From positions 647,688-711,687 of the forward strand of contig NZ_LMQI01000001.1 in the NCBI RefSeq assembly GCF_001424125.1: 64,000 nt of DNA, in the 5' to 3' direction. The notes beneath the pieces were generated by a model. The model did not search any database and was not told where the DNA came from. It saw only the letters and a list, made by a program, of their open reading frames with translations. A program made the position numbers and the translations under genes. Numbering within the stretch: position 1 is the stretch's first letter; each line of letters starts with the position of its first letter. Below are positions 34,727 to 40,543 of the stretch, piece after piece. This stretch comes from Cellulomonas sp. Leaf395 (GTDB lineage Bacteria > Actinomycetota > Actinomycetes > Actinomycetales > Cellulomonadaceae).

Positions 34727-36073
<1,347 letters not shown>

Positions 36074-36087
36074 CGCACGACCCTCGG

Positions 36088-36120
36088 AGGCCGGTCACCC
36101 CGATTCGGGTTGGCCGGCCT
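36088..36120 (+). terminator. Terminator after eno
   Basis: AGGCCGG (36088-36094) pairs with CCGGCCT (36114-36120), with an inner CCCG/CGGG stem. It lies 15 bases after the eno stop and is followed by TTC. Confidence 0.7.
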
Positions 36121-36213
36121 TCGGCGTGCCCAGAACCTGTGAGTGTCGTCTCCGGCGCGCCACGGCACGCGACATCCGGGCTGGTCGGGGCGCTACGGGG
36201 CAGAATCGACGCC

Positions 36214-36948
36214 ATGTCTGCCCCCCGACGCCCGGCGTCCCCGAGCGCCCCGGGTCGGCGCGCGGCGGCCCCGCGGTCCGGGACGCCCACCCCGGCGGCA
36301 GGCGTGCCGCGCGGGAGCGCAGGCAGTCGGCCGTCGCCACCACGCTCCGGGGCGATCCCCCGCGTCGGTCCCACCCCCTCGTCGTCGCCCAGGCCGTCCT
36401 CGTCGCGACCCTCCGCCACCCGGCCCGCCACCCGCGGCACGCCGACCCCACCGCGGGGGACCCCGCGCGCGGAGCGGGTGCAGCTGCGGGTGCCGCGGCT
36501 CTTCACCGTCCGCGCGATGGTGTTCTCCTGCGTCGTCCTGCTGGCCTTCGTGCTGGTGTACCCGACGCTGCACTCGTACCTGGAGCAGAAGGTCGAGGTG
36601 GACCAGCTGCGCGCCCAGGTCGCGGCCGCACAGGAGCGCAACGACGACCTGCGAGCGGACCTGCGGCGCTGGGACGACCCGGCGTACGTGACGGCACAGG
36701 CGCGGGAGCGGCTCTCGTTCGTGCTGCCGGGGGAGAAGGCGTTCCGCGTCGTGGACCCCGAGACCGTTCCCGACACGGCGCCCGTCGCCGACGGCCCGGC
36801 GACCGTGCTGGACTCCGGGTCGACGCTGCCCTGGTACGCGACCGTGTGGGAGTCCATCGAGGTGGCGGGCACCACCCCCGCGCCGGGTGCGGAGGATGCG
36901 GTGGCGCCGGGCGACAATGGGACGCCCGCTCCGCCCGCCGGCGGCTGA
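36214..36948 (+). CDS. FtsB/DivIC-like septum formation initiator
   Basis: The product of 244 residues has a long Pro/Ser/Arg-rich, probably disordered cytoplasmic tail (residues 1 to about 90), one membrane helix (AMVFSCVVLLAFVLVYP), a coiled coil (YLEQKVEVDQLRAQVAAAQE), and the family motif WDDPAYVTAQARERLSFVLPG. The C-terminal 70 residues are low complexity. FtsB/DivIC proteins bridge FtsL and FtsQ in the divisome. Position between eno and the DUF501 gene is the usual one in actinobacteria. The ATG at 36214 is preferred because the upstream extension has no conserved character. Confidence 0.9.
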   Translation: MSAPRRPASPSAPGRRAAAPRSGTPTPAAGVPRGSAGSRPSPPRSGAIPRVGPTPSSSPRPSSSRPSATRPATRGTPTPPRGTPRAERVQLRVPRLFTVRAMVFSCVVLLAFVLVYPTLHSYLEQKVEVDQLRAQVAAAQERNDDLRADLRRWDDPAYVTAQARERLSFVLPGEKAFRVVDPETVPDTAPVADGPATVLDSGSTLPWYATVWESIEVAGTTPAPGAEDAVAPGDNGTPAPPAGG

Positions 36949-36977
36949 CCGGACCTCCTGCACGAACGGATCGACCT

Positions 36978-37478
36978 GTGGCTCCCTCCTTCGACGACGT
37001 GACCGACCAGGACATCGCGGTGCTCGCCGAGCAGCTCGGCCGCCCTCCGCGCGGCGTCGTCGGCATCGCGGCCCGGTGCGTCTGCGGCCGTCCGCTCGTG
37101 GTCCGGACCGCCCCGCGGCTGGACGACGGCACCCCGTTCCCGACGACCTACTACCTCACCTGCCCCCCGGCGGTCGCGGCGGTGAGCACGCTCGAGGCGG
37201 GCGGGCTGATGAAGGAGCTCACGGCCCGGCTCACCGACGACGAGGAGCTGGCCGCCGCGTACCGCCGCGCGCACGACGCCTACCTGGTGGACCGTGAGGC
37301 GCTCGGGCACGTGGAGGAGATCGCGGGCATCTCGGCCGGCGGCATGCCGACCCGCGTGAAGTGCCTGCACGTGCTGGTCGGGCACGCCCTGGCGGCGGGC
37401 CCCGGCGTGAACCCGATCGGCGACGAGGCCCTGACCCTGATCCGCGACGACTGGCGCCCGGACCGCTGCACCTGCTGA
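36978..37478 (+). CDS. DUF501 family protein
   Basis: The product of 166 residues matches the DUF501 family: IAVLAEQLGRPPRGVVGIAA, RCVCGRPLVV, the FPTTYYLTCPP block, the central GGLMKELTARL, and the C-terminal RVKCLHVLVGHALAAGPGVN followed by a Cys-rich end (DRCTC). The conserved CxCG, C-P and C-L-H residues suggest metal binding. The function is unknown, but the gene stands between the divisome gene and ppx in most actinobacteria. GTG at 36978 begins the conserved part. Some relatives are annotated as septum formation proteins only through their neighbours. Confidence 0.88.
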   Translation: MAPSFDDVTDQDIAVLAEQLGRPPRGVVGIAARCVCGRPLVVRTAPRLDDGTPFPTTYYLTCPPAVAAVSTLEAGGLMKELTARLTDDEELAAAYRRAHDAYLVDREALGHVEEIAGISAGGMPTRVKCLHVLVGHALAAGPGVNPIGDEALTLIRDDWRPDRCTC

Positions 37479-37498
37479 GCCACCCGCTCGCGAGCACC

Positions 37499-37546
37499 GG
37501 ACGTCCGCACGATTCCGCGCCCCGACGACCGATCCTGCGGACGTCC
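37499..37546. repeat. Hairpin repeat, unit 1 (upstream of ppx)
   Basis: GGACGTCCGCA (37499-37509) is perfectly complementary to TGCGGACGTCC (37536-37546), an 11-bp stem around a 26-base inner part that holds CCCGACGACCGAT. It begins 21 bases after the DUF501 stop and is the first of six related units flanking ppx. Confidence 0.85.
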
Positions 37547-37562
37547 CCGCGTCCTCGACCTC

Positions 37563-37607
37563 GACGCCCGCACCTTCGCGTCCTGTCGACCTGATCTGCG
37601 GACGTCC
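37563..37607. repeat. Hairpin repeat, unit 2 (upstream of ppx)
   Basis: GACGCCCGCA pairs with TGCGGACGTC with one mismatch. The inner part shares CGCGTCCTG and CTGATCTGCGG with the other units, so it is a slightly decayed copy. Confidence 0.75.
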
Positions 37608-37623
37608 CCCCGTTGTCGACAGC

Positions 37624-37670
37624 AACGTCCGCATGATCGCGCGTCCTGACGGCACGATCTGCGGACGTCC
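37624..37670. repeat. Hairpin repeat, unit 3 (upstream of ppx)
   Basis: ACGTCCGCA (37625-37633) pairs with TGCGGACGT (37660-37668). After one bulged base an inner GATCG/CGATC stem continues the helix to 14 bp. The loop region contains GCGTCCTGACG. Confidence 0.85.
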
Positions 37671-37697
37671 GACCGGCTGCCGGCGGTGAACCCGTTG

Positions 37698-37739
37698 CGT
37701 CCGAGCATCTCCGCGCTGGAGCGGCCACGTCCTCGGACG
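37698..37739. repeat. Unrelated or diverged hairpin before ppx
   Basis: CGTCCGAG (37698-37705) and CTCGGACG (37732-37739) form a perfect eight-base stem about 40 bases before the ppx start. It resembles the six flanking units in layout but not in arm sequence. Confidence 0.5.
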
Positions 37740-37779
37740 GGGCGGGTGGGGGTGGTGGTCCGGTGCGAGGATGGGCCGC

Positions 37780-38733
37780 GTGACTCGTGTGGCTGCCATC
37801 GACTGCGGGACCAACTCGATCCGACTGCTCGTCGCTGACGTCGATCCGGACGCCGGGACGTTGGTGGACCTCGATCGGCGGATGGAGGTCGTGCGGCTGG
37901 GCCAAGGGGTGGACCAGACCGGCCGGATCGCCCCCGAGGCGCTCGCGCGGACACTCGACGCCGCCCGCCGGTACAACGACATCTGCACCGAGCTCGGGGT
38001 GGAGGCCATCCGGTTCGTCGCCACGTCGGCGTCGCGCGACGCGGAGAACCGCGCGGACTTCGTCGACGGGGTGCGTGCCGCGCTGGGCGTCGAGCCGGAG
38101 GTCGTCGCGGGCCAGGAGGAGGCCGAGCTGTCGTTCCGCGGGGCCACCGGGGTGCTCGGCGCGCAGCACCCGGGACCGTTCCTCGTGGTCGACCTCGGTG
38201 GCGGTTCGACGGAGCTGGTGCTGGGCACCACGACCCCCGAGGCGGCGTTCTCGATGGATGTCGGCTGCGTGCGGATGACCGAGCGGCACCTGCGCAGCGA
38301 CCCCCCGACCGCCGCCGAGATCGCCGCAGCGCACGCCGACGTCGCCGCGGCGCTGGACACGGCGTCGGCCCTCGTCCCCCTCGGCAAGACCGTCACGCTC
38401 GTCGGGCTCGCCGGCACCGTCACCACGGTGGCCGCCCACGGCCTCGGGCTGCCCGCGTACGACCCCGAGGTCATCGACGGGTCGGTCCTGCCGGTCGAGG
38501 TCGTCCTCGCCGCGTGCGACGACCTCCTGAAGCGGTCCCGCGAGGACCGCGCGGCGCTCGGCTTCATGCACCCCGGCCGGGTCGACGTCATCGGCGCCGG
38601 TGCGCTGGTGTGGGCGGACGTCATCCGTCGGGTGCGCGACGAGGTCGCCGCCGCGGGCGGGCAGCTGACCGAGGTGGTCACCTCCGAGCACGACATCCTC
38701 GACGGCATCGCCTGGAGCGTCGCCACCCGCTGA
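37780..38733 (+). CDS. ppx: Exopolyphosphatase (Ppx/GppA family)
   Basis: The product of 317 residues is the short actinobacterial form of the Ppx/GppA phosphatases. The ASKHA nucleotide-binding motifs are clear: VAAIDCGTNSIRLLVAD at the N-terminus, VVDLGGGSTELVLG in the middle, VGLAGTVTTVAA, and the C-terminal IGAGALVWADV. It cleaves polyphosphate or the terminal phosphate of pppGpp. GTG at 37780 is chosen because GAGG lies nine bases upstream; an in-frame ATG at 37771 would sit directly on that site. The gene is isolated on both sides by the hairpin repeat family described here. Confidence 0.92.
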   Translation: MTRVAAIDCGTNSIRLLVADVDPDAGTLVDLDRRMEVVRLGQGVDQTGRIAPEALARTLDAARRYNDICTELGVEAIRFVATSASRDAENRADFVDGVRAALGVEPEVVAGQEEAELSFRGATGVLGAQHPGPFLVVDLGGGSTELVLGTTTPEAAFSMDVGCVRMTERHLRSDPPTAAEIAAAHADVAAALDTASALVPLGKTVTLVGLAGTVTTVAAHGLGLPAYDPEVIDGSVLPVEVVLAACDDLLKRSREDRAALGFMHPGRVDVIGAGALVWADVIRRVRDEVAAAGGQLTEVVTSEHDILDGIAWSVATR

Positions 38734-38747
38734 CCTTCCCACCAGCT

Positions 38748-38795
38748 GGAACGTCCGCACTCCGACGGGTTCGAGCCCGACGAGCGCGGACGCAA
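38748..38795. repeat. Hairpin repeat, unit 4 (downstream of ppx)
   Basis: CGTCCGC (38752-38758) pairs with GCGGACG (38786-38792), with an inner CGGG/CCCG stem. It starts 14 bases after the ppx stop and is the most diverged of the downstream units. It may also end ppx transcription. Confidence 0.75.
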
Positions 38796-38805
38796 CACCA
38801 GCCGC

Positions 38806-38852
38806 AACGTCCGCACTTCGACGCGTTCCCGCCGGCACGAGTGCGGACGTCC
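38806..38852. repeat. Hairpin repeat, unit 5 (downstream of ppx)
   Basis: ACGTCCGCAC (38807-38816) is perfectly complementary to GTGCGGACGT (38841-38850). The inner part holds GACGCGTTCC. Its last GGACGTCC is also the start of unit 6. Confidence 0.85.
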
Positions 38853-38892
38853 GCGGATTCGAGCGTCCCGACGACCGAATCTGCGGACGTCT
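38845..38892. repeat. Hairpin repeat, unit 6 (downstream of ppx)
   Basis: GACGTCCGC (38846-38854) pairs with GCGGACGTC (38883-38891), one G-T wobble follows, and GATTCG (38856-38861) pairs with CGAATC (38876-38881). This gives a nearly continuous 16-bp stem with a 14-base loop AGCGTCCCGACGAC. It is the best preserved unit and shares GGACGTCC with unit 5. Confidence 0.88.
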
Positions 38893-38966
38893 GACGTTGT
38901 GAGGGCTGGGTCCTGGAGGCGGCGGGGATCGGGGTCGCGACACGCCCTGGCGCGCTCTGGACGGTA

Positions 38967-38992
38967 GTGCGCAATGTGTAATAGCGTCGCAC
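38967..38992. promoter_or_regulatory. Putative padR promoter/operator
   Basis: GTGCG (38967-38971) and CGCAC (38988-38992) form an inverted repeat around an AT-rich core that contains TAATAG (38979-38984), a good -10 candidate. PadR proteins usually repress their own promoters by binding dyads that overlap the core, so this is the likely site. Confidence 0.45.
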
Positions 38993-38994
38993 CT

Positions 38995-39018
38995 GCGGGA
39001 GCCGGAGGGGGCTCCCGC
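38995..39018 (+). promoter_or_regulatory. Hairpin at the presumed 5' end of the padR mRNA
   Basis: GCGGGAGCC (38995-39003) is perfectly complementary to GGCTCCCGC (39010-39018), a nine-base stem with a GGAGGG loop. If transcription starts near 38991 the hairpin would form the very 5' end of the transcript and may stabilise it or pause transcription. The translation start is 83 bases further on. Confidence 0.45.
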
Positions 39019-39101
39019 ACCACTCGCCGGCCCCGCCGTCGGCCGCCCCACCGGGCGGTCGGCGGCCGGGACGCGGACGCGCACCCAGACCCGGAGGACG
39101 C

Positions 39102-39431
39102 ATGGACACCACGCAGCTGCTCAAGGGCGTGCTCGACCTGGCGGTGCTCGCGGTCGTCTCCGACGAGGACGGGTACGGCTACGACGTCGTCCGCCGGCTG
39201 CGCGCCGCGGGCATCGAGGAGGTCGGGGACGCGTCGGTCTACGGGACGCTGCGGCGCCTGTACTCGTCGGGAGCGCTGACGTCCTACGTGGTGCCGAGCG
39301 ACGAGGGGCCGCACCGCAAGTACTACGGGATCAACGCGCAGGGCCGGGCGATGCTCGAGGCGCAGCGCAAGGACTGGCAGGAGTTCGCAGGCACGATGGG
39401 CCGCCTGCTCAAGACGGAGGTCGTGCGATGA
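39102..39431 (+). CDS. PadR family transcriptional regulator
   Basis: The product of 109 residues is a typical PadR winged-helix repressor: LLKGVLDLAVLAVVSDEDGYGYDVV (family pattern at the N-terminus), DASVYGTLRRLYSSGAL as the recognition helix region, and RKYYGINAQGRAML in the wing. GGAGG lies ten bases before the ATG. The stop overlaps the ATG of the downstream HAAS-domain gene. Pairs of a PadR regulator with a HAAS/DUF1700 membrane protein are common in Gram-positive bacteria, and the regulator probably controls its own operon in response to a ligand or to the membrane partner. Confidence 0.93.
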   Translation: MDTTQLLKGVLDLAVLAVVSDEDGYGYDVVRRLRAAGIEEVGDASVYGTLRRLYSSGALTSYVVPSDEGPHRKYYGINAQGRAMLEAQRKDWQEFAGTMGRLLKTEVVR

Positions 39432-40543
39432 GCGTGCTGGACACCACGGACGCGCTGGACGTGGCCGGGTACGCCGCGGCCGTGCGTCGCAGCCTCGCCG
39501 ACCTGGGCCCGGAGCAGGTCGAGGACCTCAGCGACGACCTCGAGGCCGACCTGGCGGAGGCGCTGGACGACGAGCGGCACGTGGCCCATGGGCGCGGGCT
39601 CCTGGAGCAGTTCGGGCCGCCCGAGGACTACGCCGCGGAGCTGCGGGCGGCGGCGGGGCTGGCACCGGCGACGGCGCACGCGCGGCGGGGGCAGCTGCTC
39701 AGCGACCCGGTCGACGACACCCGCCGGTTCGGCCGCTGGGCGCTGCGACGGCTGCGCGCGCTGGCGTGGTGGCCTCCCGTCGAGGCGTTCCTGATCGCGC
39801 TGCGGCCCGTCTGGTGGCTGCTGCGCGGGTGGGTCGTCTACCAGCTGGTCGCGATCTTGGCCGGGGCGTCGGGGTGGCTCCCACGGAACCTTGCGGCGTT
39901 CCTGGTGCTCGTCGGCGCGGTGATCCTCAGCGTGCAGTACGGGCGCGGTGCGTGGTTCCAGCAGCGTCGGCTGGCGTGGCTGCCGGTGACCGCGAACGTG
40001 GTCGCCGTCGTCGCCGTCCTGCCCCTGCTGGCGGGAGCGCACGACCGTCTGGTCGCGAGCGAGTCCGTCTACGCGGACTACACCGCGGGCCGGCTCGGCG
40101 GTGGCGGGACGCAGACGATCATCCAGGACAAGGCGGTCGACGGGGTCGTCGTCGACGGCGTCCAGGTGAGCAACCTGTTCGTGTACGACGCGGACGGCAG
40201 CCCGCTGACGGACGTCCAGGTCTACGACGACCGTGGCCGCCCGGTGCGCACGACGTTCGACGACGGACTCGGCCAGTACTGGTTCCCCGAGGCCACGGAG
40301 CCGTGGTCGTTCGTCAGCCGGGTGGACTCGGACGGTCGCGCACGCTGGAACGTCTACCCGCTGCAGGGGGCGCCGGCGTCCGAGTTCACGTACGACGACG
40401 ACGGTCTCCAGGTTCTCCCGGCGGAGTCCAGCGCGACGACGCCGCCGTGGCCGTTCGCGAAGGCGCCGGCACTCGACGATGCCCCGGAGGCGGCCGTCGG
40501 AGCGGAGGGCGCTCCGTCGTCGTCGCCGACCAGCACGCCGTGA
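39428..40543 (+). CDS. HAAS/DUF1700-type membrane protein paired with PadR
   Basis: The product of 371 residues has an N-terminal HAAS-like helical domain (YAAAVRRSLADLGPEQVEDLSDDLEADLAEAL and FGPPEDYAAELR patterns). Four membrane helices follow between about residues 115 and 210 (AFLIALRPVWWLLRGWVVYQ is the first). A soluble C-terminal domain of about 150 residues has a beta-rich look (LTDVQVYDDRGRPVRTTFDD). It overlaps padR by four bases (ATGA). HAAS proteins are thought to link PadR regulators to the membrane. The ligand is unknown. Confidence 0.82.
   Translation: MSVLDTTDALDVAGYAAAVRRSLADLGPEQVEDLSDDLEADLAEALDDERHVAHGRGLLEQFGPPEDYAAELRAAAGLAPATAHARRGQLLSDPVDDTRRFGRWALRRLRALAWWPPVEAFLIALRPVWWLLRGWVVYQLVAILAGASGWLPRNLAAFLVLVGAVILSVQYGRGAWFQQRRLAWLPVTANVVAVVAVLPLLAGAHDRLVASESVYADYTAGRLGGGGTQTIIQDKAVDGVVVDGVQVSNLFVYDADGSPLTDVQVYDDRGRPVRTTFDDGLGQYWFPEATEPWSFVSRVDSDGRARWNVYPLQGAPASEFTYDDDGLQVLPAESSATTPPWPFAKAPALDDAPEAAVGAEGAPSSSPTSTP

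Follow-up and report, generated by a model that had tools for sequence, protein, structure and literature searches.

The spread of REPs is commonly attributed to RAYTs. Vsr acts at T-G mismatches, and for many actinobacterial DUF559 proteins no role is known to have been assigned. RAYT genes have been described as always flanked by two inverted REPs (Nunvar 2010, PMC2817692). CGTC REPs are reported from five phyla, Actinobacteria not being one of them, and for these REPs the origin of palindromes without a transposase is stated as an open question (Di Nocera 2013, PMC3733652). A further point of reference is AbiEi of Streptococcus agalactiae, which binds two 23-bp inverted repeats placed 3 bp apart (PMC7319586). 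It is against these systems that we set a family of palindromic units in Cellulomonas and a gene that the units frame.

Palindromic units around ppx

The window, by which we mean the whole stretch of 64,000 nucleotides analysed from Cellulomonas sp. Leaf395, holds a cluster of palindromes on each side of the ppx/gppA phosphatase gene. A sequence-only reading of this DNA had described six units of about 47 bp here. All six are present where it placed them, and the last two units after ppx do have a sequence in common, ACGT; the count was one short, a seventh unit with another arm (37697-37740) having been overlooked, and the core measures 44 bp (9+26+9). The unit consensus is the 44-bp palindrome ACGTCCGCA-N26-TGCGGACGT, with a sister arm ACGTCCGAG. 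The features of the locus are:

36978..37478, + strand: DUF501 gene, context upstream of the array (gene call; Pfam DUF501 5.2e-42)
37501..37544, + strand: unit 1, type A, both arms exact
37564..37605, + strand: unit 2, type A-like, 42 bp, one imperfect arm (5' arm ACGCCCGCA)
37625..37668, + strand: unit 3, both arms exact
37697..37740, + strand: unit 4, arm type D (GCGTCCGAG..CTCGGACGG), 72 bp from unit 3; a D-type family occurs in relatives
37771..38733, + strand: ppx/gppA phosphatase gene, context (Pfam Ppx-GppA 1.8e-56)
38751..38793, + strand: unit 5, type B-like, 43 bp, one imperfect arm (3' arm CGCGGACGC)
38807..38850, + strand: unit 6, type B-like, both arms exact
38847..38890, + strand: unit 7, type A, overlapping unit 6 by ACGT in a 40-bp junction between types
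39102..39431, + strand: PadR-like regulator gene, context downstream (Pfam PadR 2.4e-16)

Start-to-start distances are 63, 61 and 72 bp upstream of ppx and 56 and 40 bp downstream. The gapped arm pattern gives seven strand-wise matches in the window, belonging to four units, where shuffles predict 0.01. DNA uptake sequences were dropped as an identification, few isolated arms being present in the window.

The clusters stand on both sides of ppx as the sequence-only reading had it, but the link to this gene looks incidental, because units sit at many gene ends and the arrays differ between species. Since ppx was detected in all 60 sampled genomes of the genus, it is also out as the partner gene of the units. 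Ppx is 93-97% identical between species, yet the arrays turn over: the Leaf395 genome has four units before the gene and three after, G022 a remnant before and four after, G030 two after, G074 type D only and G078 none, with roughly twelve bases between the DUF501 stop and the start of ppx in G078. By eye, the comparison of the ppx loci of G078 and Leaf395 revealed no target-site duplication.

Copies and types of the unit

The further copies that the sequence-only reading had proposed to look for, in this genome and in relatives, were found. The 4.17 Mb genome of Leaf395 (G000) holds 13 copies with exact arms (control 0), and a fixed-length pattern allowing up to three mismatches gives 40 matches (control 2), some 30 of them unit-like by eye. 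Exact copies occur in 9 of the 58 genomes searched, Leaf395 included, and in none of the other 49; four genomes of the same genus have 14 to 38 each, and with up to two mismatches the numbers rise to 62 units in G018 and 68 in G022 (controls 0). A scan of public genomes returned at least 115 stretches, mostly from Cellulomonas by title among the matches listed. In some Cellulomonas, then, the palindromes are scattered 3' of genes. Viral contigs contained no exact unit pattern, and a phage link was dropped on this ground.

Sorting of the 223 distinct units with CA-type arms gave 126 of type B, 64 of type A, 18 of type C and 15 others, the constancy of the arms in these sets being partly built in, since units were selected on their arms. 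Type D, built on the sister arm, reaches at least six matches in 10 of the 60 sampled genus genomes, with 33 in G002 and 37 in G074; the other 50 have 0 to 5 (controls 0 or 1). The unit counts omit 30 loci set aside by eye as non-Cellulomonas, and further loci were omitted for the spacing analysis.

Among the omitted loci, three hold near-perfect palindromes with exact arms and other inner words, and these too stand outside the unit counts: L142:1207-1250 (Knoellia locipacati) and L157:5445-5488 (an Actinomycetales MAG), both outside Cellulomonas, and L153:6757-6800, which is actually Cellulomonas (sp. URHD0024). Other palindromes were met as well. A different repeat, GGAGCGCGGACGCCC-ACGTCCGCA..TGCGGACGT-GGGCGTCCGCGCTCC, is found on MAG contigs of Verrucomicrobia type, some of which bear the title Akkermansia or Klebsiella; its 26-base core varies from each site to the next among the matches listed (L066, L074, L077, L081, L084, L086, L104, L113, L118, L120, L124, L126 and others). 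Yet another palindrome is present twice, almost unchanged and with matching flanks, in a Lachnospiraceae MAG (L059:199-242, L117:2891-2934).

Placement and spacing

Using a gene caller written for this analysis, we could place 208 of the 223 units between two genes, 113 in co-directional gaps, 95 in convergent gaps and none in a divergent gap. Of the gaps in these loci that are 44 bp or longer, 235 are co-directional, 90 convergent and 108 divergent. Of the remaining units, 13 lie at locus edges and 2 within a called gene. The units thus sit at the 3' ends of genes, the nearest often 9-17 bases past the stop; one flanking unit in G269, in a divergent gap, is an exception.

Most adjacent units keep a register. 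Among the loci used, the spacing is 63 bp in 56 pairs, 62 bp in 38, 61 bp in three, 64 bp in two and 65 bp in one, so that 94 of the 100 pairs spaced at 61-65 bp fall at 62-63 bp; the other adjacent pairs comprise 18 that overlap at 40 bp, two at 45 bp and eight with single other values. In these 100 pairs the spacer matches the neighbouring flank with an identity of 0.38-0.39; random spacers give 0.33. Since the spacings are fixed and spacer identity is near random, it is the length of the spacer that is kept, its sequence being mostly free. Tandem duplication alone was dropped as the cause of the register, because spacer identity reaches 0.65 in only 17 of the 100 pairs, mostly in recently duplicated arrays. 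The 40-bp junctions listed join differently labelled units in nine of nine cases, eight of them A with B and one an unclassified unit with B. Units that share ACGT at 40 bp are seen at 38807-38890 of the window and at L089, L098, L146, L149 and others.

DNA words and RNA fold

If pairing were selected, the left and right halves of a unit should covary. The sequence-only reading had argued for a selected fold from inner mutations that keep pairing and had suggested a covariation test. Such mutations are real in single units but not general: at the variable positions, Watson-Crick pairs are as frequent in the 64 type-A and 124 distinct type-B units as after shuffling of the halves, with one type-B position reaching z 2.6, and the 18 type-C units, too few to judge, have two positions near z 3. 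Among type-D units the 28 distinct ones of G002 do covary, at positions 10-14 (z 2.1-4.1), and the 29 of G074 have positions of either sign, the positive ones with z up to 2.9. Since the halves of types A and B vary independently, it is the DNA words that are kept in these two types, and selection for a fold is not supported for them; the lineage of G002 does covary.

G002 (loci L424-L438) carries many type-D units, often near-perfect palindromes, without a detected cognate gene. The 436 symmetrised outside flanks of units contain no T-run of the kind expected of an intrinsic terminator; in most of them the left arm is adjoined by A or G and the right arm by T or C. A search of Rfam with positions 36000-40500 of the window gave no match at E<=1.

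A gene framed by the units in Cellulomonas

A list of the genes flanked by units on each side showed one recurrent family besides ppx and other conserved neighbours. Its product is a protein of about 315 aa with an AbiEi-like (winged-helix) and a DUF559/Vsr-like part. The gene is present (E<=1e-15) in 9 of the 60 sampled genus genomes (G018, G022, G024, G030, G062, G074, G076, G077 and G078), all of which carry units, and in nine of nine, units stand on either side of the intact gene, as a rule a pair 61-63 bp apart per side, G074 having a single unit on one side. Two carriers, Leaf395 and G002, have no detected gene, and it is also absent from the other 49 genomes.

The gene has ppa (inorganic pyrophosphatase) on one side and an NlpC/P60 gene on the other, identities that were checked with Pfam in G022. 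In the Leaf395 genome this interval measures 146 bp and contains one decayed type-A pair resembling the left pair of G018. Because the locus keeps only this decayed pair, the simplest reading is that the genome has lost the gene along with the right pair, which would make the copies at ppx orphans. None of 20 ppa-NlpC/P60 loci of non-carriers holds a unit; the gap is 53-213 bp in 19 of them and 1,014 bp in one (L290, in G067), likewise without units.

The type of gene and the type of palindrome go together. Setting G062 and G076 aside, the proteins of G018 and G074 are 65-72% identical to the others, compared with 92-97% for ppx, and their genes are flanked by units of type A (G018) and type D (G074) instead of B. 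The mix of dispersed copies follows the gene type: type B makes up 9 of the 35 exact units of G018 and Leaf395 together versus 48 of 69 in G022, G024 and G030 (p 3e-5). Here Leaf395 is grouped with G018 by its remnant pair, and types A and C were told apart by a rough rule.

AbiEi profiles of PADLOC match the first ~190 residues in ten of ten proteins (best E from 1e-18 to about 1e-4), and Pfam AbiEi_4 is above its cut-off in one of ten. At the C-terminus the match to DUF559 is weak: it is above the Pfam cut-off in one of ten proteins, with eight listed at E<=1 in all, and NCBIfam gives a weak DUF559 match in two of eight proteins and nothing relevant in the others. An LD..W..ExD-type motif, searched as a strict expression, is found in 24 of 34 framed homologues. 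The structure model was poor (mean pLDDT 55), and with it the fold search of the PDB gave no match at E<=0.001, the best being AbiEi at E 0.28; fold-based identification was dropped, the model being too weak. A profile run against PDB sequences returned nothing useful.

Homologues across the order

A profile built from the nine proteins finds homologues (E<=1e-25) at 71 loci, in 38 of the 297 genomes of the order and 20 of its 94 genera. Of these loci 67 were tested, three being cut by contig ends and one not in the set. We counted a locus as framed if hairpins within 500 bp on either side had an exact 8-bp arm in common, which is the case at 34 of the 67 loci (40 with 7-bp and 29 with 9-bp arms); outside Cellulomonas it is 33 of 66 (39 and 28). 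The 34 framed loci are spread over 25 genomes and 16 genera, though the genomes are related and the counts are therefore not independent. As a control we took every called gene in four 400-kb stretches, including 40 bp inside each gene end, and found 5 of 1,441 genes framed (18 with 7-bp and 3 with 9-bp arms), three of the five being homologues themselves. At 27 of the 67 loci there is no shared flanking palindrome, even with 7-bp arms. In G269 the gene stop overlaps a flanking unit by 4 bp.

The palindromes differ between loci, for example TTGCGTCATACG in G149, GTCAGCAC in G131, and TTCGAGGTATTC and TTTGGGTGCCCAG in G301, which has two homologues (C7:60253-61134 and C10:381380-382276), each between copies of its own palindrome. 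The more alike two proteins are, the more alike are their palindromes: the Mantel r is 0.47 for the 48 framed loci (permutation maximum 0.15, 0/2,000) and 0.35 for the 39 of them outside Cellulomonas (maximum 0.19, 0/2,000). Outside Cellulomonas, palindromes have a mean similarity of 0.49 where the proteins are less than 55% identical, 0.73 where they are 65-80% identical (9 pairs) and 0.97 where identity exceeds 80% (2 pairs), and the most similar cross-genome pairs of palindromes are mostly within one genus. The palindromes of 13 same-genome pairs of paralogues are unlike (0.40-0.60), so genome composition is not the cause of the correspondence.

Outside Cellulomonas the searched words show little dispersal: in 400-kb samples they had no extra copies in G269 or G124 and three in G246, and in G301, where the search used the word of the other paralogue only, all further matches were inside genes.

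Sixteen same-side spacings from other genera, a set that leaves out one value of 286 bp, are 62 (four), 63, 64 (two), 74 (four), 85 (three), 93 and 99 bp. The degree of phase clustering they show at 10.3-10.8 bp was reached in 0 of 20,000 uniform draws (0.0002 of draws after removal of homologous cases), the fit being broad, with R 0.75 at 10.5 bp and 0.81 at 11.25-11.5 bp. From these clusters, spacings of 63, 74 and 85 bp would correspond to 6, 7 and 8 helical turns, which points to proteins sitting on the same face of double-stranded DNA.

What the palindromes may be

The explanation that we favour, with a probability of roughly 0.7 for the whole, is that the palindromes are cognate sites of the AbiEi-DUF559 protein, that gene and framing palindromes form a cassette, that the copies elsewhere were spread in trans, and that the units at ppx are orphans. 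Each unit would be a double-stranded DNA target made of two inverted half-sites of about 22 bp, and its reader would be the protein, through the winged-helix part, with the DUF559/Vsr-like part as a putative nuclease of PD-(D/E)XK type. The palindromes away from the gene would be non-autonomous copies, spread and arrayed with the help of the protein, probably by nicking or cutting at the site followed by repair-based copying, and tolerated mainly behind stop codons. What the sequences show is the sites with their placement, register and turnover, and the specific association of gene and palindrome; gene loss, binding, cleavage and mobilisation are inferred. Binding of the palindromes by the protein is highly probable given the association and its specificity, and since the 23-bp repeats of AbiEi are close to two 22-bp half-sites, the size of the half-site counts for it as well. 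That the protein also spreads them is a matter of even odds. As counterpoints, the orphan carriers Leaf395 and G002 show that units can persist without a detected gene, and Cellulomonas genomes hold units of types A, C and D though their one gene is framed by a single type. The 27 of 67 homologue loci that lack a shared palindrome, the small amount of dispersal in the other sampled genomes, the weak DUF559 match and the poor fold model also count against it.

Among the options raised by the sequence-only reading, two survive, REP-like dispersed palindromes and sites for a dimeric DNA-binding protein. The likeliest alternative to our explanation is that the units are operators or decoys, the AbiEi-like protein repressing its own gene through the flanking units while dispersed copies, spread by ordinary duplication and recombination, titrate the protein or mark self DNA for a defence nuclease. 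AbiEi is reported to regulate its own expression through the 23-bp inverted repeats (PMC7319586), the PADLOC models match every scanned protein, and two other sampled genomes lack the searched word beyond the flanks; yet framing on both sides, also past the stop codon, exceeds what an operator needs, and dozens of copies with fast turnover behind unrelated genes fit it poorly, so that we regard it as unlikely. Structured RNA, in the form of hairpins that work in both directions to terminate transcripts or to shield mRNA 3' ends, would agree with the placement (95 convergent, 113 co-directional and 0 divergent of 208), with long, GC-rich arms and with the covariation at five positions in G002. 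It is an improbable reading for the family, since types A and B do not covary, the symmetrised flanks lack a T-run outside the arms and Rfam gives no match; it also leaves the fixed spacing and the gene-specific words unexplained, and the units break up a DUF501-ppx pair that is closely spaced in G078.

A REP or MITE family of the ordinary kind, mobilised by a RAYT or some other transposase and with the nuclease-like gene as a passenger, would account for copy number, extragenic position and arrays, which are REP-like by the published description (PMC3733652). We consider it very improbable, given that there is no GTAG tag and that the AbiEi-DUF559 gene association recurs with different palindromes in many genera. 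Of 58 genomes searched for Y1_Tnp (PF01797), three have it, and the six carriers among the 58 (Leaf395, G002, G018, G022, G024 and G030) do not; RAYT as the mover was dropped for this reason. Chance words in GC-rich spacers, named by the sequence-only reading as what would undo its claim, have high GC in their favour and nothing more; with seven matches in the window against 0.01 expected, and reversed-pattern controls at 0, this reading is ruled out for practical purposes.

Returning to the protein with its proposed cognate sites, the recurrent framing of its homologues suggests an undescribed mobile or defence module. A wider formulation, to which we give an evens chance, is a selfish or defence module of Actinobacteria in which an AbiEi-type DNA reader is fused to a Vsr-like nuclease and has a private framing palindrome; reader and palindrome would switch together, the protein would assemble on helical-turn arrays, and the palindrome would at times escape to gene ends, giving rise to REP-like families without a transposase. 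No description of the gene-palindrome association was found in searches of an open-access library, and its novelty is provisional, most subscription journals being outside that scope. With a named protein family tied to a named DNA word, both become testable. If the protein moves or arrays the palindromes, genome-wide repeats could arise via a nuclease and not a transposase; if it only binds, the loci form a large ready-made set of protein-DNA specificity pairs.

Comparison with known systems

The weak C-terminal DUF559 match and the LD..W..ExD-type motif liken the protein to Vsr/DUF559 endonuclease-like proteins, for which the searches made gave no association with palindromes, in contrast to the present family. 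With the AbiEi antitoxin/repressor of type IV AbiE it shares a winged-helix part by profile match, and AbiEi likewise has inverted-repeat operators, of 23 bp (PMC7319586). Unlike that AbiEi, the Cellulomonas protein is fused to a nuclease-like domain, and its gene has ppa and NlpC/P60 as neighbours, with no adjacent AbiEii (DUF1814) toxin gene. Like the CGTC REPs, the units are REP-like repeats without an assigned transposase and lie mostly downstream of genes; the CGTC REPs are described with stems of 8-9 bp, loops of 4-5 bases and a tag that is unpaired, which sets them apart (PMC3733652). The resemblance to REP/BIME elements and RAYTs (GTAG REPs) extends to short extragenic palindromes at gene 3' ends, clustered and in many copies, and to a cognate gene framed by palindromes, in all nine genus genomes that have the gene and at 34 of the 67 loci of the order. 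The present units differ in being near-symmetric with paired ends and, by eye, in having no unpaired GTAG or CGTC tag, in their longer form with two half-sites and a 62-63 bp register, and in that an AbiEi-DUF559 protein stands in place of the Y1 transposase, of which there is none in the six carriers searched.
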